Shown here: one piece after another, positions 8,399 to 21,160 of the stretch
How the letters are laid out: each line of letters starts with the position of its first letter
Numbering within the stretch: position 1 is the first letter of the stretch
IMG/VR virus record: IMGVR_UViG_3300028556_000039
Span: 1-23,413 of that record
DNA from: a virus
Reading direction: 5' to 3' (one strand)
Length of the DNA: 23,413 nucleotides
Notes under the pieces: generated by a model
What the model was told of the DNA's origin: nothing
Database searches by the model: none
The model's input: the letters and a program-made list of their open reading frames with translations, nothing else
Translations under genes and position numbers: made by a program

Positions 8399-8426
8399 TA
8401 GTGGCAATTCGTGAAATTCGTGTCTT
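8399..8426. repeat. ATTCGTG-type junction repeat between small and large terminase genes
   Basis: Two copies of (A)ATTCGTG separated by 9-10 bases fill the 26-base gap between the small-terminase stop and the large-terminase ATG. It is the same family as 9261-9290 and 19643-19667. No Shine-Dalgarno sequence is visible in the gap. Confidence 0.55.
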
Positions 8427-8970
8427 ACAGCAGTTTCAGCTCCCGCTCGATCCGCTCCAGAGTGTCCGGTGTAATCCCTCCGCTGGACTTCGCCTGGCCC
8501 AGCTCCTTCTCCAGTGCCCGCTTTTGCGTCGCCACCAGGTCCCGATACTTCGATTCTTGCAGCTCCAACTCCCGCCGCTTCTCTTGCAGCTTGGCGTACT
8601 CCATCGTCGGCTTCGTCAGCCGCGCCACCAGTTCGATAAGCTCCGGGTCCGCATTCGCCTGCACACTGAGCTTCATGATCAGCACCCGCTGCAGCTTGAT
8701 AATCGTTTCCAACTCCGGCGCCGGATTCGTCGAAAACTGCTGTTCGACCTCCCGGCACTGCCGCGCTCCGTTCGTGATTTGCGCCAGCAACATCGCCTCC
8801 TGTAAATGCCCCTGCCGCGCAGACCACCACCCCGACAACCGCGACAAAGACACCGAGCATCCATCCCGCTTGAGCTGGTCGCGTACCTCGGCCAGCGTCT
8901 TCTTTTCCACGCCGAACCATTCGTCCAACCGCTCCGCGTGGGCATCCAGTTTTGATGGTTTCTCTTTCAT
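8425..8970 (-). CDS. Small terminase-like DNA-recognition protein (Mu gp27 / DUF3486-like)
   Basis: 181 aa, directly upstream of the large terminase. The N-terminal 60 residues read as a helix-turn-helix: 'LDEWFGVEKKTLAEVRDQLKRDGCSVSLSRLSGWWSAR', with the 'S.s.L..Ww..r' recognition helix seen in DUF3486 proteins. The rest is almost wholly helical with a strong coiled coil at about 125-165 (KLQEKRRELELQESKYRDLVATQKRALEKEL), consistent with the oligomerisation region of a small terminase ring. It would bind the packaging site and load the gp28-like motor. The family call is by gene order and motif. Confidence 0.75.
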   Translation of the reverse strand: MKEKPSKLDAHAERLDEWFGVEKKTLAEVRDQLKRDGCSVSLSRLSGWWSARQGHLQEAMLLAQITNGARQCREVEQQFSTNPAPELETIIKLQRVLIMKLSVQANADPELIELVARLTKPTMEYAKLQEKRRELELQESKYRDLVATQKRALEKELGQAKSSGGITPDTLERIERELKLL

Positions 8971-8985
8971 TCACACGTCGTCAGA

Positions 8986-9004
8986 GTTTCAAATCTTAAA
9001 TTTC
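8986..9004. repeat. AAATCTTA-type junction repeat
   Basis: Short degenerate array (TTTCAAATCTTAAATTTC) in the 37-base gap between the winged-helix gene and the small terminase. It is the same family as 16911-16943, 19795-19823 and 20605-20631. Confidence 0.4.
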
Positions 9005-9007
9005 GCG

Positions 9008-9259
9008 CTAGCGAAGCTGCCTTGCCTTATGCACGCCCTTTTCCGTCAGCGTCCAACTCCGCCCCGCGATATCATCCGTCGCGCCGGCCACATACCCGCT
9101 CGCCTCCACATCCTTCATCGCCTCAAAAATATCCCCATCAGTCGGATCGATTGGCCGCAACGAAACCTTCACCGCGCTAATCAGTGCCGACTCCGGAAAC
9201 GGCAACCCGTCAGCCGACAACAGCGACACTAAAATTGCCCGCTTCAAATTTGCCTTCAT
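9008..9259 (-). CDS. Small winged-helix-like protein, 83 aa
   Basis: The chain begins MKANLKRAILVSLLSADGLPFPE and ends SWTLTEKGVHKARQL. The order helix, helix, 'DGDIFEAMKDVEASGYVAGA' recognition segment and beta wing 'GRSWTLTEKG' is that of a winged-helix DNA-binding fold, with the common 'WxLTxxG' ending. It is the first gene of the packaging block and may be a packaging accessory (compare the small DNA-binding proteins around Mu gp25-gp27) or a regulator. The ATG directly follows a tandem ATTCGTG array, with no Shine-Dalgarno sequence. Confidence 0.65.
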   Translation of the reverse strand: MKANLKRAILVSLLSADGLPFPESALISAVKVSLRPIDPTDGDIFEAMKDVEASGYVAGATDDIAGRSWTLTEKGVHKARQLR

Positions 9260-9260
9260 G

Positions 9261-9290
9261 ATTCGTGTCTATTCGTGTCCATTCGTGGTT
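9261..9290. repeat. ATTCGTGTCT decamer tandem array
   Basis: Three clean units (ATTCGTGTCT, ATTCGTGTCC, ATTCGTGGTT) lie exactly between the stop of the coiled-coil gene (9289) and the start of the winged-helix gene (9259). The array thus makes up the whole intergenic spacer and touches the start codon. Confidence 0.8.
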
Positions 9291-9735
9291 AATGCACGTT
9301 CTTCAGCTCCCCGCGCACTTCCGCGACTGCCCCTAAAATGTCATTGATCCGATTGTGCAAATCCTTTGCCCTGGTCTCGTTTTCCGCGCTCAACCGGCGT
9401 TCCATCTCCGTCATGTCACGGCGAAAACTCTCCAGCCGTTCATACAGCCCCCGCCGGCTCTCGGCTCCCTCCTTCAAGTCTTGAGCCCGCTGCGATTGCA
9501 CTTGCCGCAATTGCTGTGTGATTTCCCGGTGTCGGCCAACGCAATCCTGCTCCCGCACCAACTCTTTTGCCTCACGCACTTCCAGTGGTTGCGGCGCAAT
9601 CAAGTTGCCCTTGCCCTTCACCCGATCCACCAGCTTCAGCACCTGGTTAACTCCCGTGGCGATACCGGCCACGATCACCACCAGCCACCCCACGGCCTGG
9701 TAAGACGCCGGATCTGGCAACTGCGCAAACATCAT
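9289..9735 (-). CDS. Membrane-anchored coiled-coil protein (inner-membrane spanin/Rz-like candidate)
   Basis: 148 aa (ATG at 9735 or 9732), preceded by AGGAGGG. One N-terminal membrane segment (VGWLVVIVAGIATGVNQVL, about residues 15-33) is followed by a long charged coiled coil (LVREQDCVGRHREITQQLRQ, SRRGLYERLESFRRDMTEMERRLSAENE, AKDLHNRINDILGAVAEVR). This is the topology of an inner-membrane spanin (Rz), and it lies beside a small lipoprotein gene, as Rz/Rz1 pairs do. It also resembles membrane coiled-coil proteins placed upstream of terminases in Mu-like phages. Function is inferred from topology and context only. Confidence 0.6.
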   Translation of the reverse strand: MMFAQLPDPASYQAVGWLVVIVAGIATGVNQVLKLVDRVKGKGNLIAPQPLEVREAKELVREQDCVGRHREITQQLRQVQSQRAQDLKEGAESRRGLYERLESFRRDMTEMERRLSAENETRAKDLHNRINDILGAVAEVRGELKNVH

Positions 9736-9923
9736 TCATTCCCTCCTCGTTCAGGTTCCCTTTGCGTCGCCGGCACCGGCGCCGAGAAAAGACTCTTATG
9801 ATTATCAATTCCCGGCACCGCGCACCCATTCAGCATTACCACCAACAACAGGATGACAAACACCGCCAGCGCCATAATCGCGACCGCCAGCGCCGTTTTC
9901 ACAATCCTGTTAAATCCTGTCAT
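9732..9923 (-). CDS. Small lipoprotein, 63 aa (outer-membrane spanin Rz1-like candidate)
   Basis: The sequence starts MTGFNRIVKT, followed by a long hydrophobic segment and a good lipobox LNGC with Cys34. The mature part is only 30 residues and Pro-containing (SAPVPATQREPERGG), like Rz1 lipoproteins. Its stop overlaps the next gene's ATG. Its own start codon and first eight codons are built from an ATCCTGT tandem array shared with the end of the upstream gene, which it overlaps by 14 bases. The pairing with the membrane coiled-coil protein suggests a two-component spanin, but I see no enzyme to complete a lysis cassette. Confidence 0.6.
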   Translation of the reverse strand: MTGFNRIVKTALAVAIMALAVFVILLLVVMLNGCAVPGIDNHKSLFSAPVPATQREPERGGNE

Positions 9924-9930
9924 CCTGTCC
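9903..9930. repeat. AATCCTGT-type tandem array spanning a gene overlap
   Basis: Three units (AATCCTGTTA, AATCCTGTC, ATCCTGTCC) read on the minus strand provide the stop of the 107-aa gene and the start codon plus first residues of the lipoprotein gene. A second copy of the family is at 11018-11050. Confidence 0.75.
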
Positions 9931-10233
9931 TTTCGGACCGCCGCCGTTAGGCGCCCACGATTTCCGCGGCGCCGGAAATCGGCTGCCAGCTCGCGGTTTC
10001 CACTCGACTTCCTTCACGTGAGTGAAATCCACGTAATAGGATTTGCCCGCCACCAACACACCTTGCGCGTCGGGATTGTCGATCGTTAGCTCCATCGACG
10101 CTGCCGGTGTCGCTTTGGAGTAATTGTTATCCTCCTGATTGTTGGAGGAATAAACGGCCCGGAGCTTTACTAGCTCAGACCCGTAAGCGTATTTCGTGAC
10201 TTCCGTCACCTGCAATTTTGCTCGAATTTTCAT
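9910..10233 (-). CDS. Conserved phage hypothetical protein, 107 aa
   Basis: It begins MKIRAKLQVTEVTKYAYGSE and continues VKLRAVYSSNNQEDNNYSKATPAASMELTIDNPDAQG, then 'KSYYVDFTHVKE'. I recall very similar small proteins in many phages: a beta-rich single domain with 'F/YSKATPxAxxxLxIxNPxA' and 'YYVDFTPV'. They have no assigned function that I know. The last 30 residues (GSRFPAPRKSWAPNGGGPKGQDDRI) are low complexity and end inside a tandem repeat array. There is no membrane segment and no catalytic motif. Confidence 0.65.
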   Translation of the reverse strand: MKIRAKLQVTEVTKYAYGSELVKLRAVYSSNNQEDNNYSKATPAASMELTIDNPDAQGVLVAGKSYYVDFTHVKEVEWKPRAGSRFPAPRKSWAPNGGGPKGQDDRI

Positions 10234-10272
10234 ATTTCTATTTCAGCCTTCGACCTTCGTGTTTCGGATCTC

Positions 10273-11064
10273 CTACACCTTCACTGTGGTGGCCGCCACG
10301 CCAGGGGCGCTTAGCGTCCCCAGCGCCTTAATAATCTCATCCGCGGACTGTTTCGCCGCCGGCTCATCCACAAAGTTTTCGATTATTGTCGCCACCTCCT
10401 GGAACACATTCGCGTCCGCCTGGTGTGCGGTGAGGTAAGCCTTGATAGCCGGCATCGCCGCCGCTCCCTGCGGCGTGCTCTGCAAAACGTTGAGCAGCGT
10501 CTCGATATTCTGCGTCAGCGCCCCTGACACCTGCGTCATCGTGTCCGCCTGGCCGGCCAGCGCGTTATTGCGCAGCTTCAAATACCCCGCCAGCAATCCG
10601 CCCAGCAAAGTCGTCGCCAACCCGCCATACCCAAACAACCCCGCTCCCGCGCCCACCGCGGCCACCGTCGCGTTACTCCCCGTCCCTGGCGACAAATGCT
10701 CCACGGCCGCATAATTCGTCGAGTAACCCGTATTCGTCTGGTAACTCGTCACCGTGTTGTAATTAGTGATTTGCACCGGGACCGGCACCGGCACGCCGAT
10801 CTGGTTCGTTTGCGTCACCGTGACCACCTTCACCTCCACGTTCGTCTGGACAATCGTGACGATATTCGTGATCGGCTTCACCAGCTCGACGATATTCGTC
10901 TCCACCGTGAAAAACTTTTTCTCAAACGCCGTCGCGGGCTTGGCGTTTTTACCGAGCAAACTGCATCCCGCGCACAGCATCATCGCCGCCGCCAGGCCGG
11001 CCACGGCAGCCGCCTTTAAAATCCTGTCAATTCTGTTGATCCTGTCTTCAGTCATTTTTTTCAT
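10273..11064 (-). CDS. Putative lipoprotein with central glycine-rich membrane segment
   Basis: 263 aa from ATG at 11064, preceded by AAGGA at suitable distance; an earlier in-frame ATG would overlap the upstream gene. The N-terminus (MKKMTEDRINRIDRILKAAA) is followed by a hydrophobic core and 'LCAGCSLL'. Cys34 is the likely lipidated residue, although Cys at -3 is atypical. Residues 45-125 are Thr/Asn/Val-rich repeats (ITNIVTIVQTNVEVKVVTVT, VPVPVPVQITNYNTVT) suggesting beta structure. A Gly/Ala/Leu-rich segment near 148-175 may insert in a membrane. The C-terminal 90 residues are helical. It sits between a holin-like gene and the small lipoprotein gene, so an envelope or lysis role is plausible. 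Confidence 0.6.
   Translation of the reverse strand: MKKMTEDRINRIDRILKAAAVAGLAAAMMLCAGCSLLGKNAKPATAFEKKFFTVETNIVELVKPITNIVTIVQTNVEVKVVTVTQTNQIGVPVPVPVQITNYNTVTSYQTNTGYSTNYAAVEHLSPGTGSNATVAAVGAGAGLFGYGGLATTLLGGLLAGYLKLRNNALAGQADTMTQVSGALTQNIETLLNVLQSTPQGAAAMPAIKAYLTAHQADANVFQEVATIIENFVDEPAAKQSADEIIKALGTLSAPGVAATTVKV
11018..11050. repeat. AATCCTGT-type tandem array in the lipoprotein start region
   Basis: Units AAATCCTGTC, AATTCTGTTG and ATCCTGTCTTC are translated on the minus strand as part of the lipoprotein N-terminus (EDRINRIDRI). It is the same family as 9903-9930. Confidence 0.7.
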
Positions 11065-11086
11065 TGGGTCTAGTTCCTTATTCGGT

Positions 11087-11347
11087 TTAGGGGTTAATGG
11101 CCGTCCCACCAGAAATAGTGGCCGGCACGCCAGTGCCTTCTTTGCCGCGCTGCCAGGCTTTGATACCGAGCGCTCCCAGCACCAGGGCCGTCTGGTCCGT
11201 GCTCAGCGCTTGCAACTGCATTTGCTCCACGCTGACCACTGCCCAAACACCCAGCACCACCACCACAATCAACAGCGAGCACACGCGCATCGTGCTCGTG
11301 TTTTGGGGCGTCCCATCCTCGCTCAGCATTGCGGCAAAGAAGTTCAT
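11087..11347 (-). CDS. Small membrane protein, holin-like candidate, 86 aa
   Basis: It starts MNFFAAMLSEDGTPQNTSTMR. The first membrane segment is VCSLLIVVVVLGVWAVVSV (about 22-40). After a short polar loop (EQMQLQALSTDQ) comes a second, shorter hydrophobic stretch (TALVLGALGIKAW) and a polar tail. Short proteins of this topology, with 'xxALVLGxLGxKAxQ', are common near phage lysis genes and are often called holins or phage-associated membrane proteins. It is the first gene after the candidate late promoter at 11525-11554. No endolysin is recognisable nearby, so the holin role is tentative. Confidence 0.55.
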   Translation of the reverse strand: MNFFAAMLSEDGTPQNTSTMRVCSLLIVVVVLGVWAVVSVEQMQLQALSTDQTALVLGALGIKAWQRGKEGTGVPATISGGTAINP

Positions 11348-11524
11348 GTGTTTATCGGTTTATCAGTTCGTCATATTCCGGTCCCTCTGGACCTTCAACG
11401 CGTCCCATCAAAACACACCTCACCCGCCTTGTATTGCCTACCGTGGGAAACTCACTCCTCTTAACTAGAAAACCCCGATTCAGCCCCGGCCGCCTGGCCG
11501 AGACCCAGTCGAGGTCTGACCGTG

Positions 11525-11554
11525 ACTATGCTACCCCGGCTCCCAAACTGTCAA
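11525..11554 (-). promoter_or_regulatory. Candidate minus-strand (lysis/late) promoter
   Basis: On the minus strand TTGACA (11549-11554) is followed after 18 bases by CATAGT (11525-11530). It lies in a 244-base gap upstream of the holin-like gene, where I see no gene. The -35 is consensus and the -10 is four of six. It may need an activator. Confidence 0.45.
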
Positions 11555-11591
11555 CGAACTTCGAGCGCGGCCGCCTTTAGCGCGCGCCAGC

Positions 11592-11873
11592 TCACTTACG
11601 TTTCGCAATCACCCCAAGCCGAAAATAAATTAGCGCCAGCAGCGTCAGCCCGATCCCCGTCGCGATCCGTTCAAAGCTCAAGTTGAAAATCCCGAAAAAC
11701 CACAAAACCAGAAATATTAGCACCGCACCAAAACCAATCCACACCCCAGTCGGTAAATACTCCTCTCCTCTGTGCCTTAGTTCGCGCCGGCTCCGCGTCG
11801 GATTCGCCAGCACCGGATCCATCCCATCCGCCAAGGTCCCATCCGTCCTATCGGTCCTATTGGTCACATTCAT
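11592..11873 (-). CDS. Small protein with two membrane segments, 93 aa
   Basis: The first 20 codons (MNVTNRTDRTDGTLADG) are encoded by a TCCTATCGG nonamer array, so the functional start may be Met18 (11822, MDPVLANPTRS). Two membrane helices follow: VWIGFGAVLIFLVLWFFGIF (about 44-63) and IATGIGLTLLALIYFRLGVI (about 71-90), with a short loop and a basic C-terminus (AKRK). The hairpin topology and size are like class II holins. It lies between the repressor and the candidate late promoter, so it could be a second holin/antiholin or a lysogeny-expressed membrane protein such as a superinfection exclusion factor. No family recognised. Confidence 0.55.
   Translation of the reverse strand: MNVTNRTDRTDGTLADGMDPVLANPTRSRRELRHRGEEYLPTGVWIGFGAVLIFLVLWFFGIFNLSFERIATGIGLTLLALIYFRLGVIAKRK
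11823..11872. repeat. TCCYATCCG nonamer tandem array
   Basis: Units TCCCATCCG, (CCAAGG), TCCCATCCG, TCCTATCGG, TCCTATTGG and TCACATTCA run straight into the ATG of the membrane-protein gene on the minus strand. It is the same family as 18814-18861, 20021-20050 and 21124-21157. Confidence 0.8.
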
Positions 11874-12208
11874 GATTCCGTATTTTCCCTGATGTCCTAC
11901 TTATTCACTTGGACAGCCTTTGTCCAAGCGCATAGGGGAGAATCCCCCCTAGCAAAATGACAACTCTTGCGTTGCTAAAATGCCGACCAACCTGCATGGT
12001 TAGCCAGATTTTTAGCGCAGGTCGCGGCGAACGGAAAATTACGAGTTCCCCTGAATCCGCCGATATACCAGTGCGCGCCAAAACTGGCGCGGCTTGGCGT
12101 TTTGGGATTCTGGGCCCTCGTAAGCCCTCCGTTCCGATGCGTTGGGTCGCGCCCTTCTTTTGGTCGGCAACGCCGGGGATAATAACCGTGAAAGACGCCA
12201 TACAATGA
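11874..12208. other. 335-base gap with three hairpins, no convincing gene
   Basis: Open frames here lack plausible protein features. It holds three perfect stem-loops: CTTGGACA/TGTCCAAG at 11908-11928 (8 bp, 5-base loop), TAGGGG/CCCCTA at 11933-11951, and CGCGCCA/TGGCGCG at 12074-12091 (7 bp, loop AAAC) with an overlapping alternative pairing CCAAAAC/GTTTTGG (12078-12105). Alternative pairings suggest a structured RNA or a decayed mobile element. There is no T-run after the first two stems in either direction, so simple terminators are unlikely. Confidence 0.5.
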
Positions 12209-12721
12209 TTAAGACCCTTGCCCTTGATTCCGAGTTGGAGCAATCGATGACTTCCCTTCCTCTCCTTGAACGCCTTCAGTTGGCCGATCTCCTGGAGGCT
12301 TGTGCTTATCGTCTGCGCCACCCTTTGAGCCCTGCACCACTTTTACGGCGGCCTGCAAAATGTGCCTTGCCGCTTCCTCCACATTGCCACAACTGAGCAG
12401 TTTCCTTTCGTAGTGAGTGATTTGCTCGCTCATCGAGTCCGCCTGGGACTTCAATGCCTGCAATATCCTCCTCACTGTTTCAGTGTCTGGGCCATGGTTA
12501 ACGGCCACGCTTTCCCCCACGAGCCAGCCAATTGTAACACCCATCGCCTTCGCGATTTTTTCAAGTTGCTCCAGAGTTGGTCCACTCGTAACCAGGTTGC
12601 GCTCGTAATCTGAAATACTTCTTACCGAAACCCCAGATTCTTGCGCCAGTCGTTCCTGTGTCCAGTTCCGACTGCCACGGCCTGTTTTTAATCTCTCCGA
12701 CAAACTAACAGTTTTCTGCAT
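12209..12721 (-). CDS. XRE-family (CI/Mu c-like) phage repressor
   Basis: 170 aa from ATG at 12721 (MQKTVSLSERL); the longer frame reaches back across the operator into the opposite gene and is unlikely. The N-terminal domain is a clear HTH_3: 'LSERLKTGRGSRNWTQERLAQESGVSVRSISDYE' (HTH about 21-40) followed by 'PTLEQLEKIAKAMGVTIGWLV'. A helical linker/oligomerisation region (ETVRRILQALKSQADSMSEQITHYERKLL) follows, then a disordered tail. There is no LexA/S24 peptidase domain, so induction by self-cleavage is not expected. It is divergent from the Ner-like gene, with the operator between. It is the probable lysogeny repressor of the early operon. No Shine-Dalgarno sequence is visible. Confidence 0.85.
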   Translation of the reverse strand: MQKTVSLSERLKTGRGSRNWTQERLAQESGVSVRSISDYERNLVTSGPTLEQLEKIAKAMGVTIGWLVGESVAVNHGPDTETVRRILQALKSQADSMSEQITHYERKLLSCGNVEEAARHILQAAVKVVQGSKGGADDKHKPPGDRPTEGVQGEEGKSSIAPTRNQGQGS

Positions 12722-12985: not shown

Positions 12986-13175
12986 ACCTTTCAAAACCAT
13001 CATCGAATTTTGCCTCGAAAAGTCTCACGAGGTTGACATCCCTAAACGTATAAAACTGTACCGTGGACTAGCAGAATTCTGTGGGGACATGCAGCAAGGT
13101 GCGGATTTATTCCGCAGAGCCGATGAGCTTGAAACAGCGGAACGCCGCTGCCGTGAGTTCAGATTTCGCGACTAA
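12975..13175 (+). CDS. Small hypothetical early protein, 66 aa
   Basis: It starts MQSEPFKTIIEFCLEKSHEV at 12975, overlapping the end of the Ner-like gene. It is wholly helical and charged: 'RIKLYRGLAEFCGDMQQGADLFRRADELETAERRCREFRFRD', which looks like two antiparallel helices with three cysteines. There is no membrane segment and no HTH. The frame is maintained by overlap at the 5' end, supporting translation. I recognise no family. Confidence 0.55.
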   Translation: MQSEPFKTIIEFCLEKSHEVDIPKRIKLYRGLAEFCGDMQQGADLFRRADELETAERRCREFRFRD

Positions 13176-13272
13176 TTCCGTGAAATCCGCTCCCAAAATT
13201 CCCGCTGCCGCGCTGGGCACTTCCCCTGGGGGATTTCCCCAACGCACTTCACCCCATGGCAGCCAGAGGAAA

Positions 13273-13728
13273 ATGATGCTCGGTGACACGCCCCTCCTCA
13301 TCCTGGCCACCGTCGAAGACGCCCGCCGCCAACTCCCCGGCCACGACGAAGACGACATCTTAGCCCTCATCGAAGAGGGCCGCATCGACCACGCCTGGAA
13401 CATCGCCGTTCACCTCGATACCGCCCGCGAAATCCGCATCTGGCCAGACTCCATCACCCGCGCCCTGCAACCTTCAACCTGCAACCTTCAACCCGTCCGG
13501 AGCCCAGTCGAGTCCATCATGCACATCGCCACCGGCGACAAACCATTCGCGCGCGGCAAAATCCTCGCCCTCGTTTTCAATTGTTCCCGCAGCCACATCA
13601 TCAACCTGGTCGAGGCCAGGCAGCTCGCGATGCAACCCGGCACCAGCTACGAGCGCGGCCCAAACGGCACCCCTTTGATCACCCTCAGTTCCCTCAAACA
13701 TTTCCTCACCAGCCGCCGAATCATATGA
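13273..13728 (+). CDS. Putative early DNA-binding/regulatory protein, about 151 aa
   Basis: I place the start at ATG 13273/13276 (MMLGDTPLLILATVEDA), which has AGAGGA just upstream; a GTG at 13180, four bases after the previous stop, is the alternative and would add 31 residues. The N-terminal half, 'VEDARRQLPGHDEDDILALIEEGRIDHAWNIAV', and C-terminal half, 'GKILALVFNCSRSHIINLVEARQLAMQPGTSYERGPNGTPLITLSSLKHFL', each read as a helix-turn-helix; the second has 'SRSHIINLVEARQL' followed by a beta hairpin, like excisionase/MerR-type winged helices. The two halves are joined by a translated CAACCTT array (RALQPSTCNLQPVRS). It is probably a regulator; the target is unknown. Confidence 0.55.
   Translation: MMLGDTPLLILATVEDARRQLPGHDEDDILALIEEGRIDHAWNIAVHLDTAREIRIWPDSITRALQPSTCNLQPVRSPVESIMHIATGDKPFARGKILALVFNCSRSHIINLVEARQLAMQPGTSYERGPNGTPLITLSSLKHFLTSRRII
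13465..13495. repeat. CAACCTK heptamer array, translated
   Basis: Four units (CAACCTT, CAACCTG, CAACCTT, CAACCCG) in frame inside the early regulator, coding a Leu-Gln-Pro/Thr-Cys-Asn linker between two predicted HTH halves. Confidence 0.8.
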
Positions 13729-13943
13729 CCCAACCCCTTAACCTCGATATCGAATCCGCCTTGCTCAAACGCATGGCCGCTGAAAATCTGACCCTCGCCG
13801 CCAGCTTCGTCGCCATCGGCAACCTGGCCTCCGCCCGCGACCACATCGCCTCAGCCCTTAGCAACCTCGATTCACTCGACTACGTCACCCCCTCCGTTCC
13901 CTCAGTTAGCTCCTGTTCAATCTCTGAAGCCATCGCCATATGA
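13725..13943 (+). CDS. Small hypothetical early protein, 72 aa
   Basis: ATG at 13725 overlaps the previous stop, and its own stop overlaps the next start (ATGA), so it is embedded in a coupled run of genes. It starts MTQPLNLDIESALLKRMAAE, with two helices (MAAENLTLAASFVAIG, ASARDHIASALSNLDSLD). The last quarter (VTPSVPSVSSCSIS) is encoded by a TCCGTTCCC nonamer array. No family recognised; it resembles small helical-hairpin proteins. Confidence 0.5.
   Translation: MTQPLNLDIESALLKRMAAENLTLAASFVAIGNLASARDHIASALSNLDSLDYVTPSVPSVSSCSISEAIAI
13892..13919. repeat. TCCGTTCCC nonamer array, translated
   Basis: Three units (TCCGTTCCC, TCAGTTAGC, TCCTGTTCA) code PSVPSVSSCS at the end of the 72-aa protein. 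An almost identical array is at 14704-14731 in the transposase N-terminus. Confidence 0.7.
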
Positions 13944-14629: not shown

Positions 14630-16918
14630 ATGTCAGAATCAGAATCAGAAAACTCGCCGGTATCAGGGCAACCTGCAACCTGCAACCTTCAACCCGCAAC
14701 CGGCTCCGTTCCCTCCGTTGCCTCCTGTTCATTTTCCATCCCCGCCGCCGACACCGCCTACTTCGCCTCCCTCCCGGACCAGGTCCGGGCAGACGTCCGC
14801 CGCAAACTCACCGCCCTCAAATCCATCGCGGTGGCCCCCAAGATAATGCCCGCTTGCAAAGCCCAGGCAGCCCTCATGCATGGAGCCCGTGGCTTCTCCG
14901 CCGCCACACTCCGGTCCCAATACTACACCTACGCCAAAACCGGCGACTGGCGCCTCCTCATCGACCACGCGAGGGCCGGCAAAGATTTTATTGACCGGGG
15001 AGCTAGCCAGGACCTCCCCGGCGAATTCATCGAATACTGGCGCGGCCTGTGCGAGCGCAACCAGCGTAAATCCCGCGCCGCCCGCCGCGAACTCCTCCAC
15101 ATCTGGCGCACCCACCACGACACCGCCGGCCGCGCGGTCAAATCCATCCCCGGTTACAATCTCTCCACTCGCCCCTCGGCCCTCGCCACTTCTTCCTGGC
15201 CCGCCGCAGATCCCTCCACCGGCATCCCTGCCGGCTGGTCCGAAGCCAATCTCTATCGCTTTGCCCCCACCAAATTCGAACTCACAGCCGCCCGTATCGG
15301 CCGCGCCGCCGCCGCCGGGTTTCGCCCCCAAGTCCTCTCCACCCGCGTCGGCTTGCGCGTCGGTCAGTACCTCGTATTCGACGATCAAGAATACGATGTG
15401 AAAGTCAATTTCCCCGGCAACTCAAAAGCCATGCGCCCCCTCGGCCTCAATGCGCTTGACCTATTCTCCGCCTGCCTCTTTGCCTACTCCTTCAAACCCA
15501 CCATTTGGAACGCCGAAGCCGAAGCCAAACAAAAACTCAAAGAAGTGGACATGCTCTGGTTCGCTGTCCACGTCCTCACCAGCTTCGGCTACCGCGACGA
15601 CGACGGTGGCACTACGCTAGTAGTTGAACACGGCACCGCCGCCATCCGGGAGGATTTCGAGCAACGTATCTTCGACGCCACCCACGGCAAAGTCCGTGTT
15701 GATCGCTCCGGCATCGGTGGCGCCCCTAGCTTCGACGGTCTATTCGAAGGCGCCAGCCGTGGTAATTTCCGCTTCAAAGCCGCCCTCGAATCCATCTTCA
15801 ACCTCGTCCGAAACGAGATGGCCATGCTCCCCGGAAACGTCGGTAAAGACCGTCTCCACTCCCCCGAGGAACTCCACGGCCGCGACCGCTACAATAACTC
15901 CCTCATCCGCGCCGGCCTCGCACTCCCGCCCGAGCGCTCCAAACTTTTGCGCCTGCCCTTCCTCGATTGGCAACAATTCACCGGCCTTTGCCTCGACCTC
16001 TATTCCCGAATAAATAGCCGGGTAGATCATGACCTCGAAGGCTGGGAACGCGCTGGCCTGGTCGCCAGCGAATGGCGCCTTCCCCTTTCATCCACCTGCA
16101 ACCTTCAACCTGCAACCTGCAACCAAGACGCTTTCACCCCCTGGATGGACCAGCAAAAATTTCTCGCCCTTCCCGCGCCCGAGCAAGCCATCATGCGCCA
16201 GCTCATCGAAGCCCAGCCATCCCTCACCCGCGCCCGCAAACTCGCCCCCGTTGAAGTCTTCCAACGTGGCCAGCCCGAATTACAGCGCGTCCCTAGCTTC
16301 CTATTGCCCGTCCTCCTGGGCCCCGAGTTCGGCATCGAGCGCCGCGCAAAAAACGGCATCTTTGAATTTGAAGATCGCGCCATCAGCCCCGATCCCATTC
16401 GCTTCCTGGCGCGCCTATCCTCCGGTGAACTCGTTGCCGACGGTGAGAAATTCTTGACCTACCTCAACCCATTCAGCCCCACCGAACTCATCGTCTGCAA
16501 CACCCAAGGCGGGTACCTCGGCACCTGCCTCCCATGGGCCAGTCCCTGCCGATCCGACACGGAAGCCATCCACCGTCAAATGGGCCAGGCAAAGCACATT
16601 GAAGCCCAGCTCCTGGCTCCCGTCGCCCGCCGAGGCGCCGAGGTCGCCCGCGAGAAACTCGAAATGCACCGCCACAACGCCAGCATTTTAGCCGCCGGCA
16701 ATGATCCACGTGGAACATCCGTCAAAATCCCCGAGTCACTTCGCCAGCAAATCACCCCCGCAGACCTGGCCGCCGCCACCGAAGGGGTAGGGACGTCCCC
16801 GTCCCCGCGTCAATTCAGCCCCGAAGAAATCTCCAACCTATTCACCGACCTGGCCCCTCAAATTGCCTCTCCTTTGGGAGAGGGTCAGGGTGAGGGGGAC
16901 GGCTGTTCAGATTCTTAA
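14630..16918 (+). CDS. MuA-like DDE transposase
   Basis: 762 aa, with GGAG eight bases before ATG. After a repeat-derived N-terminus (to about residue 38) comes a Mu-type DNA-binding region (DQVRADVRRKLTALKSI, GFSAATLRSQYYTYAKTGDWRLLID). The rve/RNase H core spans about 240-400: 'QYLVFDDQEYDV' (Asp251/252, first acid), 'TTLVVEHGTAAI' (Glu333 where MuA has Asp336) and 'FKAALESIFNLVRNEM' (Glu387, third acid). Spacing of about 82 and 54 residues compares with 67 and 56 in MuA. A beta-barrel-like region (PVEVFQRGQPELQRVPSFLL, GELVADGEKFLTYLNPFSP) and a helical C-terminus, where MuA contacts MuB, follow. Three repeat arrays are translated in frame, and the last 18 residues derive from a palindromic repeat. 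It catalyses strand transfer for integration and replicative transposition. Confidence 0.9.
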   Translation: MSESESENSPVSGQPATCNLQPATGSVPSVASCSFSIPAADTAYFASLPDQVRADVRRKLTALKSIAVAPKIMPACKAQAALMHGARGFSAATLRSQYYTYAKTGDWRLLIDHARAGKDFIDRGASQDLPGEFIEYWRGLCERNQRKSRAARRELLHIWRTHHDTAGRAVKSIPGYNLSTRPSALATSSWPAADPSTGIPAGWSEANLYRFAPTKFELTAARIGRAAAAGFRPQVLSTRVGLRVGQYLVFDDQEYDVKVNFPGNSKAMRPLGLNALDLFSACLFAYSFKPTIWNAEAEAKQKLKEVDMLWFAVHVLTSFGYRDDDGGTTLVVEHGTAAIREDFEQRIFDATHGKVRVDRSGIGGAPSFDGLFEGASRGNFRFKAALESIFNLVRNEMAMLPGNVGKDRLHSPEELHGRDRYNNSLIRAGLALPPERSKLLRLPFLDWQQFTGLCLDLYSRINSRVDHDLEGWERAGLVASEWRLPLSSTCNLQPATCNQDAFTPWMDQQKFLALPAPEQAIMRQLIEAQPSLTRARKLAPVEVFQRGQPELQRVPSFLLPVLLGPEFGIERRAKNGIFEFEDRAISPDPIRFLARLSSGELVADGEKFLTYLNPFSPTELIVCNTQGGYLGTCLPWASPCRSDTEAIHRQMGQAKHIEAQLLAPVARRGAEVAREKLEMHRHNASILAAGNDPRGTSVKIPESLRQQITPADLAAATEGVGTSPSPRQFSPEEISNLFTDLAPQIASPLGEGQGEGDGCSDS
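14668..14702. repeat. CAACCTG heptamer array in the transposase N-terminus
   Basis: Five units (CAACCTG, CAACCTG, CAACCTT, CAACCCG, CAACCGG) code QPATCNLQPATG near residue 14. They are directly followed by the nonamer array at 14704-14731, and both lie before the first recognisable domain. Confidence 0.8.
14704..14731. repeat. TCCGTTCCC nonamer array in the transposase N-terminus
   Basis: Units TCCGTTCCC, TCCGTTGCC and TCCTGTTCA are translated as SVPSVASCS. It is nearly identical to 13892-13919. Confidence 0.7.
15162..15193. repeat. CTCGCCCCT-type array inside the transposase
   Basis: Degenerate units (CTCCACTCG, CCCCTCGG, CCCTCGCCACTT) code 'STRPSALATSS', a linker between the DNA-binding and catalytic regions. 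The same repeat family is in the terminase gene at 7569-7602. Confidence 0.6.
16093..16124. repeat. CAACCTK heptamer array inside the transposase
   Basis: Four and a half units (ACCTGCAACCTTCAACC, then TGCAACC twice) are translated as TCNLQPATCN near residue 490, between the catalytic core and the barrel-like region. Confidence 0.8.
16866..16898. repeat. Palindromic REP-like repeat forming the transposase C-terminus
   Basis: CCTCTCC-TTTG-GGAGAGG (16866-16883, perfect 7-bp stem) is followed by GTCAGGGTGAGGGG. I recall this sequence (CTCTCC..GGAGAGGG.CAGGGTGAGGG) as a dispersed palindromic repeat in many bacterial genomes. Here it is read in frame as SPLGEGQGEGDG, followed by the stop. Confidence 0.7.
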
Positions 16919-16943
16919 TCTCAAATCCTAAATCCTAAATTCT
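16911..16943. repeat. AAATCCT heptamer array between transposase and ATPase genes
   Basis: Units TAATCTC, AAATCCT, AAATCCT and AAATTCT end exactly at the ATG of the MuB-like gene (16944). It overlaps the transposase stop. No Shine-Dalgarno sequence. Confidence 0.8.
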
Positions 16944-18017
16944 ATGGAAACCCCTCAATCACTCGTTCCCTCCCCGATCACCCGCTCCGAAATCGCCGAA
17001 GCCGCCAGCGCCCATTCACGCCTCAACATCCCCCTCAACCTCGACAACTGGAAAACCCTCCCCGAAGACGTCAGCCGCGAACTCCTCTGGTTTCACCAGT
17101 ACGCCCTCGACAACAAAATCAGCCTGCGCGACTGCGCCGAAGCCCTCGACTACGATCAATCCACCATCTTCCGCATCCTCAAAGGTACGTACGAAGGCTC
17201 CTGGGGAAACATTGCAAAGGCTATTCAAAGCTACCGCAACCTCGCTGAAAATCGTGGTACCATTCAGCAAAATGAGTTCGCTGAAAACTCCATCAGCACC
17301 CTCATCTTCAACGCCCTCGACTATGCGATGGCCAACAACTCCATCACCATCGTCATCGGCGAATCGCGCCAGGGCAAAACCGTAGCCGCCAAAGCCTGGC
17401 GAGACCAAAACAATCACGGCCGCTCCGTCTACGTCATTGCACCCGCCTACGGTGGCACCAAAGCACTCCTCCGCGACATTGCCAGCGCCGTGGGCGTCAA
17501 CCGCAACCTCAACGCCATGCAGATGCACGAAGCCATCCTGCGCGCCTTCAACAAAAACCGAATCCTCATCGTCGACGAAGCCCACCGCCTCCTCCCCTCC
17601 GACCGCCGCACAAACCCAGTCAACCTTGAAATCCTGCGCGACATCCATGACCGCACCCACTGCGCCCTGGCCCTGCTCGCCACCCAGCGCTTCGATTCCG
17701 AACTCAAAAAGTCCGAATACATGTTTGAGCAGCTCCTCGGCCGCGTCGGCCTCCCTGTGCGCATCCCGCGCACCATCAAAGAATCCGACCTCCGCCCCAT
17801 CATCCGCCAATATATATCCGCTCCCTCACGCGACCTAATCACCCTCGCCGTCAAAATCAGCAACCTCCCCGGCCGCCTGGGCATCCTCGTTGAGACCTTG
17901 AAAGTCGCCAGCCGCCTGGCCGCCAAGAAAAAGGAAAAACTCTCCGAGCAACACTTCGTCATCGCCTACCAACTCCGCCAGCAAATGCAGGGCGAAACCA
18001 GCTATGCGGAAAAGTAA
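16944..18017 (+). CDS. MuB-like AAA+ ATPase, transposition target selector
   Basis: 357 aa. The N-terminal third contains an HTH, 'ISLRDCAEALDYDQSTIFRILKGTYEGSWGNI' (about 52-85), as in MuB. The AAA+ domain has Walker A GESRQGKT (139-146), Walker B 'ILIVDEAHRLL' (Asp211-Glu212), a sensor-1-like 'ALLATQRF' and arginine-rich 'LLGRVGLPVRIPRT'. The C-terminal 'NLPGRLGILVETLKVASRLAAKKK' matches the MuB/TniB-type lid with a basic DNA-binding end. It binds target DNA with ATP, recruits transposase and stimulates it, and gives target immunity. It lies 25 bases after the transposase with a repeat array as spacer. Its end overlaps the next gene by 14 bases. Confidence 0.92.
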   Translation: METPQSLVPSPITRSEIAEAASAHSRLNIPLNLDNWKTLPEDVSRELLWFHQYALDNKISLRDCAEALDYDQSTIFRILKGTYEGSWGNIAKAIQSYRNLAENRGTIQQNEFAENSISTLIFNALDYAMANNSITIVIGESRQGKTVAAKAWRDQNNHGRSVYVIAPAYGGTKALLRDIASAVGVNRNLNAMQMHEAILRAFNKNRILIVDEAHRLLPSDRRTNPVNLEILRDIHDRTHCALALLATQRFDSELKKSEYMFEQLLGRVGLPVRIPRTIKESDLRPIIRQYISAPSRDLITLAVKISNLPGRLGILVETLKVASRLAAKKKEKLSEQHFVIAYQLRQQMQGETSYAEK

Positions 18018-18228
18018 CAATCCAGCACCCGCCGCCGCCTGGCTCGGCCACACCTGTGGTTTCTGTGGCGCCAAAGGCGGCGCCTATCTAACTCACTATG
18101 AAATCTTGCGCTGCACCTGCGGGCACTTCTTTTGGGCGCTGCAACCAAACGCCGGCGGTCCCTTGAAACTATTTCAGCATCCCGGCTTTTACCCAATTAC
18201 CGTTCCAAATCTCGTCCCTCGCCACTAA
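18004..18228 (+). CDS. Small zinc-ribbon-like protein, 74 aa
   Basis: The start overlaps the ATPase end, so it is probably coupled to it. 'HTCGFCGAKGG' (Cys18, Cys21) and 'LRCTCGHFFWAL' (Cys37, Cys39) make a CxxC-x15-CxC set, consistent with a zinc ribbon in which the second knuckle has one residue fewer than usual. The remainder (FQHPGFYPITVP) is aromatic-rich. It may be a DNA- or RNA-binding accessory. I recognise no named family. Confidence 0.5.
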   Translation: MRKSNNPAPAAAWLGHTCGFCGAKGGAYLTHYEILRCTCGHFFWALQPNAGGPLKLFQHPGFYPITVPNLVPRH

Positions 18229-18242
18229 CCCCTCAAAAAAAT

Positions 18243-18449
18243 ATGCACAAACACCATAAACACCTCTCCATGCCCGAGCCTGAAAACCTCCACTGCCACA
18301 CCCTCCCCGTCCGCTACCAATGGTCCACACCGGACGGCACCGTCCATCACGCCAGCAGCGTCGTAGTCGCCCGCACCCCCGGCGGACTCCGCGCCGCCCT
18401 CAAACGCTTCTGGATCACCAACACCCACGTCGCCCCGGAGGAAGCATGA
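18243..18449 (+). CDS. Small hypothetical protein, 68 aa
   Basis: It starts MHKHHKHLSMPEPENLHCHT; an in-frame Met10 is an alternative start. The middle, 'VRYQWSTPDGTVHHASSVVVARTPGGLRAALKRFWI', looks like a small beta-beta-alpha domain. There is no membrane segment. It ends in an ATGA overlap with the next gene. No family recognised. Confidence 0.5.
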   Translation: MHKHHKHLSMPEPENLHCHTLPVRYQWSTPDGTVHHASSVVVARTPGGLRAALKRFWITNTHVAPEEA

Positions 18450-18829
18450 CTACCCTACACGCCCTCTCCGCAATCATGCCCACCCACACCGCCATTTTCC
18501 AAGCGGCCACTAAGACCCTGCAACCTTCAACCTTAAACCTTAAACCCTCCCCGCGCCCTATTCCGGGAAGCCGCGCCAAATACATCATCATCCAATCCAT
18601 TGCAATGGAACTGGCTATTCTCTTTCACGAGTCCATTAGCCACTCCGACGCCATCAACCGCAAAGACCGCCAGCCCCTCAGCGCCGGTTATTATTGGCTA
18701 AACACAGACGGCTCCGTCACCACCGACGTCCTCGAAAGCACATCCTTGCAGCTCAAACCCCGTCCCCAAGACGCCCAGATAATCGAAAACACCCTCCACC
18801 TCCTCCGCCTAACCCCATCCGTCCCATAA
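18446..18829 (+). CDS. Hypothetical protein, 127 aa
   Basis: ATG overlaps the preceding stop (ATGA). The first 45 residues contain a translated heptamer array (TLQPSTLNLKPSPRPIPG). The body is 'KYIIIQSIAMELAILFHESISHSDAI', then 'DRQPLSAGYYWLNTDGSVTTDVLESTSLQLKPRPQDAQIIENTLHLL', a helical segment followed by a small beta region. It ends inside a nonamer array that leads to the Gam gene. No catalytic motif and no recognised family. Confidence 0.45.
   Translation: MTTLHALSAIMPTHTAIFQAATKTLQPSTLNLKPSPRPIPGSRAKYIIIQSIAMELAILFHESISHSDAINRKDRQPLSAGYYWLNTDGSVTTDVLESTSLQLKPRPQDAQIIENTLHLLRLTPSVP
18518..18548. repeat. CAACCTT/TTAAACC heptamer array, translated
   Basis: Units CAACCTT, CAACCTT, AAACCTT and AAACCCT in frame in the 127-aa protein. 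Confidence 0.75.
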
Positions 18830-18861
18830 GTCCCATAAGTCCTATCCGTCCTATTCCTCCT
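18814..18861. repeat. TCCCATAAG nonamer array before the Gam gene
   Basis: Units CCCATCCG, TCCCATAAG, TCCCATAAG, TCCTATCCG, TCCTATTCC and TCCT, then the ATG at 18862. The array covers the stop of the previous gene and the whole spacer. Confidence 0.85.
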
Positions 18862-19428
18862 ATGAAAACCACCCGTCAAAAAATCACACTCCACGAAATC
18901 ACCACCCGCGATGAAGCCGAAAGCTTTGTCGGCCAAATCGCTCTCCTCACGATCCACCAAATCCGCGACACCGCCAAAATGGACTCCGAGATCGCCGCTA
19001 TCCGCACAAAATACGAGTACTCACTCGCTGTCATCGCCGCCGAACTCAAGACCCACACCGATACCGTTCGCGCCTGGGCCGAGTCCAACCCCGGCGAATT
19101 TTCCAAAGGCCGCAAATCCATCACCTTCGTCCAAGGCACCATCGGCTTCCGCACCGGCACGCCCAAACTTGCGCTCCTCTCCCGCCTCTGGAACTGGGAT
19201 AAAGTCCACAAAGCGCTCATCAGCCTTGGCCTGGCCAAAGACTACGTCCGCACCAAAGAAGAAGTGGACAAAGAAGCCATCCTCGCCGCGGCCGCGCAGA
19301 ACCCGGACAAAGAAGGCGCCCGCATCGCCTGCGCCGCCTTCGGAACCAAAGTCATCCAGGAAGAAACATTCTTCGTCGATCCCACCCTCACCGAAGTCGA
19401 GACCCGCCAAACCGTGGAGGCCGCATGA
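18862..19428 (+). CDS. gam: Mu Gam-like host-nuclease inhibitor / DNA-end-binding protein
   Basis: 188 aa; Mu Gam is about 174. The family order is visible: 'DEAESFVGQIALLTIHQIRDTAKMDSEIAAIRTKYE' (long dimer helix with the typical 'I...I...y...l'), 'LAVIAAELKTHTDTVRAWAESNPGEFSKGRKSITFVQGTIGFRTGTPKLALL' (the 'K.i.f..G.igfR...p.l' signature), then the second helix and 'GTKVIQEETFFVDP' near the end. These are Ku-like homodimers that cap double-stranded DNA ends against host RecBCD/AddAB-type exonucleases. The start directly follows a tandem repeat array. Its stop overlaps the next gene (ATGA). Confidence 0.9.
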   Translation: MKTTRQKITLHEITTRDEAESFVGQIALLTIHQIRDTAKMDSEIAAIRTKYEYSLAVIAAELKTHTDTVRAWAESNPGEFSKGRKSITFVQGTIGFRTGTPKLALLSRLWNWDKVHKALISLGLAKDYVRTKEEVDKEAILAAAAQNPDKEGARIACAAFGTKVIQEETFFVDPTLTEVETRQTVEAA

Positions 19429-19640
19429 GCCAAAAAGTCAACGTCACCTTTCGCCACAACGGCCGCGTCGTCATCACCATGCGCCCAGACGACTTCAAGA
19501 TCCTGCACAATACCGTCCGTTCCCAACTCGGCCTGGAAAACCTTCCCTCCGATCCCATCATCGTCCGCAGCCTGGCCGACACCCAGCTCGCCATGCGCAC
19601 CTTTAAAGACCGCAACCAAGACCTCTTCCCCGAATCCTAA
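19425..19640 (+). CDS. Small hypothetical protein coupled to Gam, 71 aa
   Basis: It starts MSQKVNVTFRHNGRVVITMR at the Gam stop (ATGA overlap). A beta hairpin (VNVTFRHNGRVVITMRPDDF) is followed by a helix with 'FKILHNTVRSQLGLENLPSDPIIVRSLADTQLAMRTFKDRNQ'. No membrane segment or cysteine. Co-translation with Gam suggests a related step, but no family is recognised. Confidence 0.55.
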   Translation: MSQKVNVTFRHNGRVVITMRPDDFKILHNTVRSQLGLENLPSDPIIVRSLADTQLAMRTFKDRNQDLFPES

Positions 19641-19642
19641 TC

Positions 19643-19667
19643 AGTGAAATCCGTGTAATTCGTGTCT
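19643..19667. repeat. ATTCGTGTC decamer array
   Basis: Two units (AAATCCGTGT, AATTCGTGTC) and TAT lead straight into the ATG of the 42-aa membrane protein (19668). Confidence 0.7.
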
Positions 19668-19796
19668 ATGAAAACCTTAAACATGCTCACCACCTGGTTC
19701 CTCGTTCTCATCATCGCCACCGTCTGCCTCGCCGGCGCCGGCCTCCTCTGCCGTCTCCTGTTCATAGTGTTCCACTTCGGCTGGAGCGCCTTCTGA
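19668..19796 (+). CDS. Single-membrane-segment microprotein, 42 aa
   Basis: It starts MKTLNMLTTWFLVLIIATVC and ends LLFIVFHFGWSAF. Almost the entire chain is hydrophobic, with one Arg (residue 29) splitting it into two stretches (about 8-28 and 30-37), and two cysteines. It lies in the otherwise gene-free gap between 19640 and 19824, with a repeat array ending at its ATG. The size is typical of small phage inner-membrane proteins, such as superinfection exclusion or host-takeover factors; the role is unknown. Confidence 0.5.
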   Translation: MKTLNMLTTWFLVLIIATVCLAGAGLLCRLLFIVFHFGWSAF

Positions 19797-19823
19797 AATT
19801 TCAAATCCAAAATCTTAAATCAG
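19795..19823. repeat. AAATCTTA-type array
   Basis: Units GAAATTTC, AAATCCAA, AATCTTA and AATCAG run from the stop of the 42-aa gene to the next ATG. Confidence 0.65.
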
Positions 19824-20027
19824 ATGAAAACCACCGAACCCTTCTACGCCGTCCAACTCCCCGCAAACCTGCGCCAGCAGCCGCGCCTCGCCATCGGCGC
19901 AATGTCCGCCGGTCCCGCGCTTTTTTATTGGCGAAAACAAGCCGTCGAGTTCAAGCGCACCCTTGCTCGCGAAGGCTTCAAATCCGCGCGCGTCGTTCGC
20001 GTCCGCGCCGACTACACCTGGTCATAA
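19824..20027 (+). CDS. Small basic hypothetical protein, 67 aa
   Basis: It starts MKTTEPFYAVQLPANLRQQP; 'AGPALFYWRKQAVEFKRTLAREGFKSARVVRVRADYTW' follows. One helix (YWRKQAVEFKRTLARE) between beta strands, with net positive charge, suggests a small nucleic-acid-associated fold. It begins after one repeat array and ends in another. No family recognised. Confidence 0.5.
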   Translation: MKTTEPFYAVQLPANLRQQPRLAIGAMSAGPALFYWRKQAVEFKRTLAREGFKSARVVRVRADYTWS

Positions 20028-20050
20028 GTCCCATAAGTCCCATCCGTCCC
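20021..20050. repeat. TCCCATAAG nonamer array before the DnaA-IV-like gene
   Basis: Units TCATAAG, TCCCATAAG, TCCCATCCG and TCCC, with ATG of the DnaA-like gene at 20051. The array includes the stop of the preceding gene. Confidence 0.85.
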
Positions 20051-20428
20051 ATGAATCCCTCCCCTCAACTCTACAAAATCCTCTCCGACGCCATCGCCAC
20101 CATCTCCGATCTCCACTGCGCCTGGGCCATCATCGCCCGCATCAGCGCCCTCACCAGTGTGAGCGTGGTGGACATCCAGTCCCACAATCGCCACTGGGAA
20201 ATCGTCCAAGCCCGTTGGATCGCCATCCATTTCATCCGCGAATACACCAGCCTGCCGCTATCCACCATCGGCCTCTATTTCGGCATGAAACACAACTCCA
20301 TTTTATATGCCCTAAAATCCTTCCAAAACGAGGTCGAAACATCCCCAAAATTCACAGCCCAAGTCTCCTCCATCCGCGCCGAACTCCCCCGCGGCGGTTT
20401 GGGTCGAGTTATTGCCGCCCCAAAATGA
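20051..20428 (+). CDS. Stand-alone DnaA domain IV-like DNA-binding protein
   Basis: 125 aa. Residues about 33-92 follow the DnaA C-terminal domain: a first helix with 'SVVDIQSHNRHWEIVQARWIAIHFI' (DnaA: '...S..R...i...R..amyl.r...'), then 'LPLSTIGLYFGMKHNSILYALKSF', matching the DnaA signature 'lG..FG.RdHtTVl.A...'. The Asp-His-Thr-Thr core is replaced by Lys80-His81-Asn82-Ser83. There is no AAA+ domain, so it can bind DNA but not oligomerise like DnaA. It may recognise DnaA-box-like sites in phage or host, act as a regulator, or compete with host DnaA. It ends in an ATGA overlap with the next gene. Confidence 0.8.
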   Translation: MNPSPQLYKILSDAIATISDLHCAWAIIARISALTSVSVVDIQSHNRHWEIVQARWIAIHFIREYTSLPLSTIGLYFGMKHNSILYALKSFQNEVETSPKFTAQVSSIRAELPRGGLGRVIAAPK

Positions 20429-20628
20429 ACCCTATGACCGTGATCAAAAAAGGAGACCGTGTGAAATGGTGCGCGCCCGGCAGGCCCTACACGCGCGAAG
20501 GCACCGTAGTCGAAATCCTCGAAGGACAGCGGATGGTCAAGGTCGGCTTGGAAAATTGGTCCACTAGGTGGATCCCCGCCGCCTGGGTCGAGTCCTTGCT
20601 TCCAAAAATCGTAAATCGTAAATCGTAA
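20425..20628 (+). CDS. Small SH3/KOW-like hypothetical protein, 67 aa
   Basis: Starts MNPMTVIKKGDRVKWCAPGR (ATGA overlap; in-frame ATG at 20434 is an alternative). 'IKKGDRVKW', 'REGTVVEILEGQRMVKVGL' and 'STRWIPAAWVESLL' form the strand pattern of an SH3-like barrel: 'GDxVxW...GxVxxIxxxxxxVxxxxxxxxWIPxxxL'. Proteins of this type often bind nucleic acid or act as small adaptors. The C-terminus is encoded by an AAATCGT heptamer array (KIVNRKS). Confidence 0.6.
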   Translation: MNPMTVIKKGDRVKWCAPGRPYTREGTVVEILEGQRMVKVGLENWSTRWIPAAWVESLLPKIVNRKS

Positions 20629-20631
20629 TTT
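20605..20631. repeat. AAATCGT heptamer array
   Basis: Three exact units (AAATCGT x3) followed by AATTTCA span the stop of the SH3-like gene and end eight bases before the next ATG. Confidence 0.85.
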
Positions 20632-20638
20632 CACCGCC

Positions 20639-21160
20639 ATGCTCCTAACCAAATCCCAGCAACTCCGTTTCTGGCGCGAATGGTCCGTCGCTTGCAAAGT
20701 GCAAGGTTGGACCAAAGCCGTTAGTTGGACCGGTGCCCAGATCGACAACGAACGCCACGCCTTACTCGCGCGCGCCGGCTTCGACAGCCTCACCAAAGTT
20801 GATCACCTCACCGGCTTCGACCGCGTCCTCGCCGAGCTGGCCGCCCTCGCCAAGCCCAATGACATCAGCCCCCAAATGCGCGCCGCCGAGCAACCCCGCA
20901 TCCGCCTCCTCCACGCCATTGAAGCATTGGGCAACAAAATCAGCCTCGGCCAAACCGCCACCGGACAAAACTCCTACGTTGCCACCATCTCCCGCGACCG
21001 CTTCGGAGTCAGTGATTACACCACCTTGCCCCTACCTCAGCTAGAGCAACTCCGCAACACCCTCGCCTCCCGCGCCGCCGCCCACCGCCGCCGCACCCAA
21101 GAGCGCCTCCAGCCGACAGAAACCCCATCCGTCCTATCCGACTCATCCGTCCCATTCTGA
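20639..21160 (+). CDS. Hypothetical early protein, possibly GemA/DUF1018-like
   Basis: 173 aa. The first part, 'QQLRFWREWSVACKVQGW', then 'NERHALLARAGFDSLTKVDHLTGFDRVLAELAALAKP', resembles the first half of GemA/DUF1018 proteins of Mu-like phages ('Y...L....G..S...l....l..vl..l..L'). The second half, 'RIRLLHAIEALGNKISL', 'NSYVATISRDRFGVSDYTTLPLPQLEQLRNTLASRAA', does not clearly match the 'W.eL......' half of that family. The C-terminus (TPSVLSDSSVPF) comes from a nonamer array. In Mu, GemA modulates host gene expression. I give this family call only weak weight. Confidence 0.5.
   Translation: MLLTKSQQLRFWREWSVACKVQGWTKAVSWTGAQIDNERHALLARAGFDSLTKVDHLTGFDRVLAELAALAKPNDISPQMRAAEQPRIRLLHAIEALGNKISLGQTATGQNSYVATISRDRFGVSDYTTLPLPQLEQLRNTLASRAAAHRRRTQERLQPTETPSVLSDSSVPF
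21124..21157. repeat. TCCTATCCG nonamer array, translated
   Basis: Units CCCATCCG, TCCTATCCG, ACTCATCCG and TCCCATTC code the last residues of the 173-aa protein and reach its stop. Confidence 0.75.

Follow-up and report, generated by a model that had tools for sequence, protein, structure and literature searches.

The stretch of DNA considered here, referred to as the window, is the entire linear virus record IMGVR_UViG_3300028556_000039 of the IMG/VR database (23,413 bases), and it carries many arrays of short tandem repeats that lie between its genes, across gene ends and within coding sequence. Genes on the minus strand, in the left half, encode an HK97-type capsid protein, a fused portal/MuF protein and the terminase, and those on the plus strand, in the right half, encode a MuA-like transposase, a MuB ATPase and Gam, the two arms thus being transcribed in opposite directions; because of this set of genes, the record is assigned to a Mu-like transposable phage. 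The arrays are probably copies of dispersed repeats of the kind found on Verrucomicrobiota chromosomes, similar to the short tandemly repeated repetitive (STRR) sequences of cyanobacteria, which insert, turn over and are oriented on the DNA strand by the polarity of replication.

Seven families with units of 7, 9 or 10 bp were distinguished: F1 (ATTCGTG-like), F2 (AAATCCT/AAATCGT), F3 (TCCYATNNG), F4 (CAACCTT/CAACCTG), F5 (TCCGTTCCC), F6 (AATCCTGT) and F7 (CTCGCCC). An earlier note on this DNA had described about seven such families, and their existence is borne out by Tandem Repeats Finder (score ≥35, period 6–12), which returned 21 arrays against 1.8 in shuffled sequence, and by a scan with the seven consensus sequences, which gave 22 matches against 0–1 (Table 1). 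The same note regarded the arrays as linkers of gene junctions throughout the phage. Enrichment at boundaries is real, with 10 of 22 Tandem Repeats Finder arrays lying within 20 bp of a gene boundary (3.3 expected, p=0.0014) and 9 of 22 family arrays being mostly noncoding (1.85 expected, p=0.001). However, intergenic placement is enriched without being the majority, and more than half of the arrays lie inside open reading frames (four stretches in MuA, one each in terL, gene 13123–13728 and gene 18446–18829, and further arrays in the terminal coding parts of genes); the linker title and the word ‘throughout’ overstate the case. As had been noted, the ATGs at 9259, 16944, 18862, 19668 and 20051 each stand directly 3' of an array, at a distance of 0–3 nt, and at 18862, 19668 and 20051 the last repeat unit includes the ‘AT’ of the ATG. 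Since the junction arrays fill the entire gap, the upstream stop is abutted as closely as the downstream start.

Table 1. Repeat arrays and transposition genes of the window
Feature	Position	Strand	Context
F1 array, degenerate	211–232	+	Junction by gene 225–806; acacaaattaacacgcattttt in sense
F4 array	6851–6869	+	terL/portal gap, genes on minus strand
F7 array	7569–7595	+	Within terL; coincides with lineage-specific insertion
F1 array	8399–8424	+	Fills terS–terL junction
F1 array	9260–9288	+	Between stop of the 9289 gene and ATG at 9259
F6 array	9903–9930	+	Minus strand gives stop of gene 9910–10233 and ATG of gene 9732–9923
F6 array	11019–11047	+	N-terminal codons (EDRINRIDRI) of lipoprotein-like gene 10273–11064
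F3 array	11833–11866	+	N-terminal codons of gene 11592–11873
F4 array	13464–13493	+	Within gene 13123–13728
F5 array	13892–13919	+	Near 3' end of gene 13725–13943
MuA-like, Mu-type transposase (phrog_310)	14630–16918	+	
F4 and F5 arrays	14668–14731	+	MuA N-terminal extension (insertion relative to most homologues)
F7 array	15161–15187	+	Within MuA
F4 array	16094–16124	+	Within MuA; ~15-residue insertion, absent from five homologues
GGGAGAGGGTCAGGGTGAGGG repeat	16868–16907	+	MuA C-terminal insertion
F2 (AAATCCT) array	16923–16943	+	Fills MuA–MuB junction up to ATG 16944
MuB-like transposition ATPase (phrog_296)	16944–18017	+	
F4 array	18519–18546	+	Within gene 18446–18829
F3 array	18815–18861	+	Over end of gene 18446–18829 into Gam ATG 18862
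Mu Gam-like end-protection protein (phrog_491)	18862–19428	+	
F1 array	19638–19667	+	Between stop of gene 19425–19640 and ATG 19668
F2 array, degenerate	19803–19822	+	Upstream of ATG 19824
F3 array	20023–20050	+	Over stop of gene 19824–20027 into ATG 20051
F2 (AAATCGT) array	20606–20628	+	Gives stop codon of gene 20425–20628
F3 array	21125–21157	+	3' end of gene 20639–21160, just before ATG 21164

Insertions within genes and turnover at junctions

Alignments of MuA and TerL, each with five homologues, place the in-gene arrays opposite residues that are missing from most or all relatives. MuA has insertions of ~15 residues at 16094–16124 and of 14 at its C-terminus, in addition to an N-terminal extension, and TerL has an insertion of a few residues at 7569–7595. 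The insertions at the MuA C-terminus also hold two further repeat types, one at 16787–16813 (GGGACGTCCCCGTCCCC) and the GGGAGAGGGTCAGGGTGAGGG repeat. A perfect AAATCCT repeat is closed in all six frames and is seen only at junctions or gene ends, whereas CAACCTT, which has no stop in any sense frame, is mostly within genes, and CTCGCCC, open in the sense frames, is often found there. Such frame-dependent placement would be expected if insertion were followed by purifying selection.

Single-protein scans of viral contigs and genome contigs with MuA and MuB returned no relatives; these came instead from a genome search and from a portal alignment, the latter yielding genomes with 47–55% portal identity and conserved gene order. 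Genes of the relatives, as of the chromosomes considered below, were called with a home-made gene finder. Moreover, a contig from another metagenome, IMGVR_UViG_3300031711_000090 (L520), is 99.99% identical to window positions 1–8369 and runs ~5.5 kb past the left end, with a further F3 array at a junction (9974–10000); because of this extension, the window is incomplete.

Orthologous junctions differ among these genomes. The terS–terL junction, filled by an F1 array in the window, is a 4-nt ATGA overlap in three relatives (L522, L524 and L526), and the F1 array before the ATG at 9259 corresponds to a 2-nt gap in L524. The prot–capsid junction has 2 nt in the window and an AAAGCAG array in L526, the g809–g225 junction has two bases in the former and a repeat-derived stretch in the latter, and the next2–next3 junction holds an F3 array in the L520 extension and a GGGGCGAG array in L526. 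Between MuA and MuB, an array upstream of the start is present only in the window and in none of five related prophages (43–66% MuB identity), and in prophage G168 a GACGACG array stands just within MuB. The structural arm of L526 bears 31 arrays in 18.9 kb, 23 of which are mostly noncoding against 3.9 expected. Over 22 kb, L526 has more than 30 polarised arrays, and almost no gene junction of its structural arm is free of them.

Because junctions vary among relatives while gene order is kept, it follows that arrays insert, turn over and persist where they are tolerated. Gene order is independent of them, and the boundary excess is explained by tolerance. The earlier note had held that junctions without arrays in related phages, coupled with no excess near starts, would speak against its reading; the former was found, which counts against a conserved function, whereas the excess near boundaries is real. 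That note also considered that phage modules may have been joined through recombination at shared repeats, a proposal with which the presence of the same families at several junctions agrees. However, relatives with and without arrays keep the same gene order, the orthologous junction having no array, an ATGA overlap or another family; moreover, different families occupy junctions inside one conserved operon, and arrays within single genes join nothing. Module joining is thus exceedingly unlikely.

Families in bacterial chromosomes and strand polarity

The earlier note had likened the arrays to intergenic elements of Verrucomicrobiota comparable to STRR, and this is supported by the occurrence of F1, F2, F3 and F4 in bacterial genomes. 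F1 is present in over 119 genome stretches, of which many are from Verrucomicrobiota, F4 in 9 of 388 genomes of the phylum, F2 in 5 of 293 genomes of one order (one of them having 51 copies) and F3 in 42 of 150 genomes of one family; none of 23 genomes contained the exact pattern TCCCATAAGTCCCATAAG, and a degenerate pattern was used thereafter. Cyanobacterial STRR are tandem units of ~7 bp with many dispersed copies, mostly intergenic, in lineage-specific families. The present arrays are like them in that short-unit tandem arrays occur beyond chance and their families are dispersed in cellular genomes, and differ in their units of 7, 9 and 10 bp, in comprising at least seven families, in being carried by a phage, in lying also within genes and in being strand-polarised.

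The polarity concerns the DNA strand rather than transcription. All 22 arrays of the window read on the plus strand and none on the minus strand, six of them in the half with minus-strand genes, and when one founder is allowed per family, the 15 further copies all agree (chance ~3e-5). In L526, the family words number 84 in forward orientation and 0 in reverse over two oppositely transcribed arms, and eight of the forward words belong to the arm in which MuA has the opposite direction of transcription. The GC skew is negative over the entire window, in both arms (-0.11 to -0.35), suggesting that the phage replicates with a fixed polarity. Mu-like phages integrate in either direction relative to host forks; together with the uniform polarity in the phage, this suggests that the arrays are laid down, or kept, relative to the direction of the phage's own replication.

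A complete Verrucomicrobiota chromosome, G114, shows the same rule on a larger scale. There, 11 families contribute 108 arrays, and 106 of these are oriented according to the GC-skew replichore and not the gene strand (p=4e-29), the origin having been placed by GC-skew sign and gene direction, with dnaA at position 376. In the left replichore, 6 of 6 arrays between minus-strand genes follow the replichore, as do all convergent and divergent cases. Over the whole chromosome, F3 has 14 plus sites at 0.37–2.04 Mb and 6 minus sites at 2.63–4.16 Mb (14/14 and 6/6), and F6 has 5 and 5 sites (5/5 and 5/5). A second chromosome, G125, agrees with the rule; there, by our own count, 15 F3 loci fall into two opposite arcs, with 8 plus loci from 4.6 to 1.4 Mb through zero and 7 minus loci at 1.8–3.8 Mb.

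It could be postulated that the polarity is kept by selection after insertion in either orientation. KOPS (FtsK-orienting polar sequences) and other skewed replichore motifs are single short motifs whose orientation follows the replichores, as it does here, where tandem arrays of many unrelated families are concerned. The near-absolute polarity in G114 resembles that of polar motifs such as KOPS (the subject of PMC2585057), but the rule holds for eleven sequences unrelated to one another, for which a single reader protein is hard to propose, and other array-bearing genomes have no polarity, which makes selection rather improbable. Local strand-biased replication slippage, with no copying between sites, would account for the tandem structure, the rapid turnover and the strand dependence. 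However, the same families recur with the same order of imperfect units at unlinked sites, in other phages and in chromosomes, and exact F3 units are common to the window and G114. The F5 copies at 13892 and 14704 and in L526 share one order of non-identical units, an indication that whole arrays were copied, and slippage as the sole source is doubtful.

Several observations weigh against replication-oriented, inserting repeats as the explanation. Polarity is not universal, since orientation is mixed in two other chromosomes, G196 and G731, and in weakly skewed phages, and polarity is seemingly absent from the weakly skewed G196 and G168 and from phages such as G025. The broad set of viral contigs shows only a tendency (76:38 for F3, collagen-like coding matches having been removed by a copy-number cut, and 22:5 for F6), which is clearer in strongly skewed contigs (50:17). 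Part of the polarity may be compositional, as many arrays are C-rich and lie on the C-rich strand; counter to this, the nearly balanced TTGGTCA and the ATTCGCGTCC family are polarised in G114 at 8/8 and 7/7. No near-identical genome showed an empty site opposite an array; L520, the one such contig, matches the window in its arrays along the shared 8.4 kb. The mobility of arrays as units is suggested instead by the MuA and terL insertions and by presence or absence at orthologous junctions. In addition, the phage's host was not found. In G196 (L279 and L280), G712 and G029 (23287–23388), where strand polarity is absent, such arrays occur as close inverted pairs with the potential to form hairpins.

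Start codons and other repeat systems

A role in translation initiation or coupling had been proposed in the earlier note, the arrays serving as ribosome-landing elements in place of a Shine-Dalgarno (SD) site, as in MacGregor's proposal for TAACTGA. These direct repeats of Beggiatoaceae, cyanobacteria and Bacteroidetes have one sequence and are mostly forward to the start codon, and in Beggiatoaceae the heptamers mostly end 1 nt before it, SD sites being rare there (PMC4679880). The likeness extends to heptamer arrays by start codons, some of which overlap stops or protein ends. In the window, five arrays run into an ATG, and an SD-like site precedes 0 of the 9 array-start genes and 10 of the other 27 (Fisher p=0.039).

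However, many sequences are involved here, and they take both orientations relative to genes. One family reads in sense in the plus arm and antisense in the minus arm, and in viral contigs the ratios of sense to antisense are 44:53 and 11:13. Concentration upstream of starts is likewise lacking, being confined to five junctions of the window. In co-directional gaps of G114 the arrays sit mid-gap (mean relative position 0.54) with no start bias, in L526 contacts with stops are at least as frequent as contacts with starts, and orthologous genes begin without arrays. Moreover, few genes of G114 have an SD site at all (103 of 709), and its absence is therefore ordinary there. A start-codon role is thus very unlikely, and single arrays may have been co-opted for translation later.

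Other short repeats share some of these features. The GGGNATC quadruplex-forming heptamers of Xanthomonas and Nostoc, described by Rehm and colleagues, are also dispersed arrays enriched between co-directional genes and near stop or start codons, but they have no leading/lagging preference (PMC4692102), in contrast to the near-absolute strand polarity of the window (22:0), L526 and G114 (106:2). Tracts of three G per unit, characteristic of that system, are found only in F7 (GGGGCGAG) and partly in F5, and F1, F2, F4 and F6 are without them. Borg tandem repeats (PMC9879509) are fast-evolving repeats in the gaps and open reading frames of an extrachromosomal element, a likeness to the present arrays, and are reported to be virtually absent from the host, whereas the families considered here, with 7–10-bp units, are shared with bacterial chromosomes. 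Literature searches, covering open-access papers only, found no report of replichore-polarised tandem arrays.

Further repeated sequences occur in the window. Near-repeats at 23239–23380, 3' of the last gene (AAAGTGTATCAAACC, AAAGTGTATTAAACC and TGTTGTAAACCGCG), are possible transposase-binding end sites. The terL/portal gap contains, at 6748–6850, a seemingly perfect 16-bp inverted repeat (AAAAGGGCTGTCCGCG / CGCGGACAGCCCTTTT) with a loop of several tens of bases, a candidate terminator or miniature element. Gene 21565–22128 includes a 12-bp unit repeated 15 times (CGCTGCCAGGGA) at 21909–22092, which encodes alanine-rich repeats of the AARDAARDAAWDAAW type.

A probable replication-coupled origin and its implications

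If the arrays are dispersed STRR-like copies, they would arrive in the DNA of phage and host as small insertions with quick turnover and would survive mainly where the coding load is lowest, in gaps, gene ends and loops, and families free of stop codons would also survive inside genes. Once in a junction, an array may provide the neighbouring genes with a stop codon, a start codon or N-terminal codons. Its orientation would be fixed by the DNA strand, that is, by replication polarity, and not by transcription. Insertion in the phage is probably strand-specific and coupled to replication, for example by annealing of a single strand of fixed polarity at the fork, or alternatively by template switching on one arm. 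More tentatively, it is possible that an active strand-specific process at the replication forks of these bacteria and phages places repeat blocks of fixed polarity in any replicating DNA. If that were true, the orientation of arrays would record the direction of replication in chromosome and phage alike, and gene ends would be continually remodelled.

Reports of short bacterial tandem repeats of 6–10 bp go back decades, and the origin of such repeats is not known. The near-absolute replication-strand polarity in some Verrucomicrobiota chromosomes, and in phages with the same families, points to replication-coupled insertion, which can be tested through comparisons of closely related strains and phages. 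A caution also follows: an array in contact with a start codon is not necessarily a signal for translation, and in genomes of this kind insertions can create stop as well as start codons.

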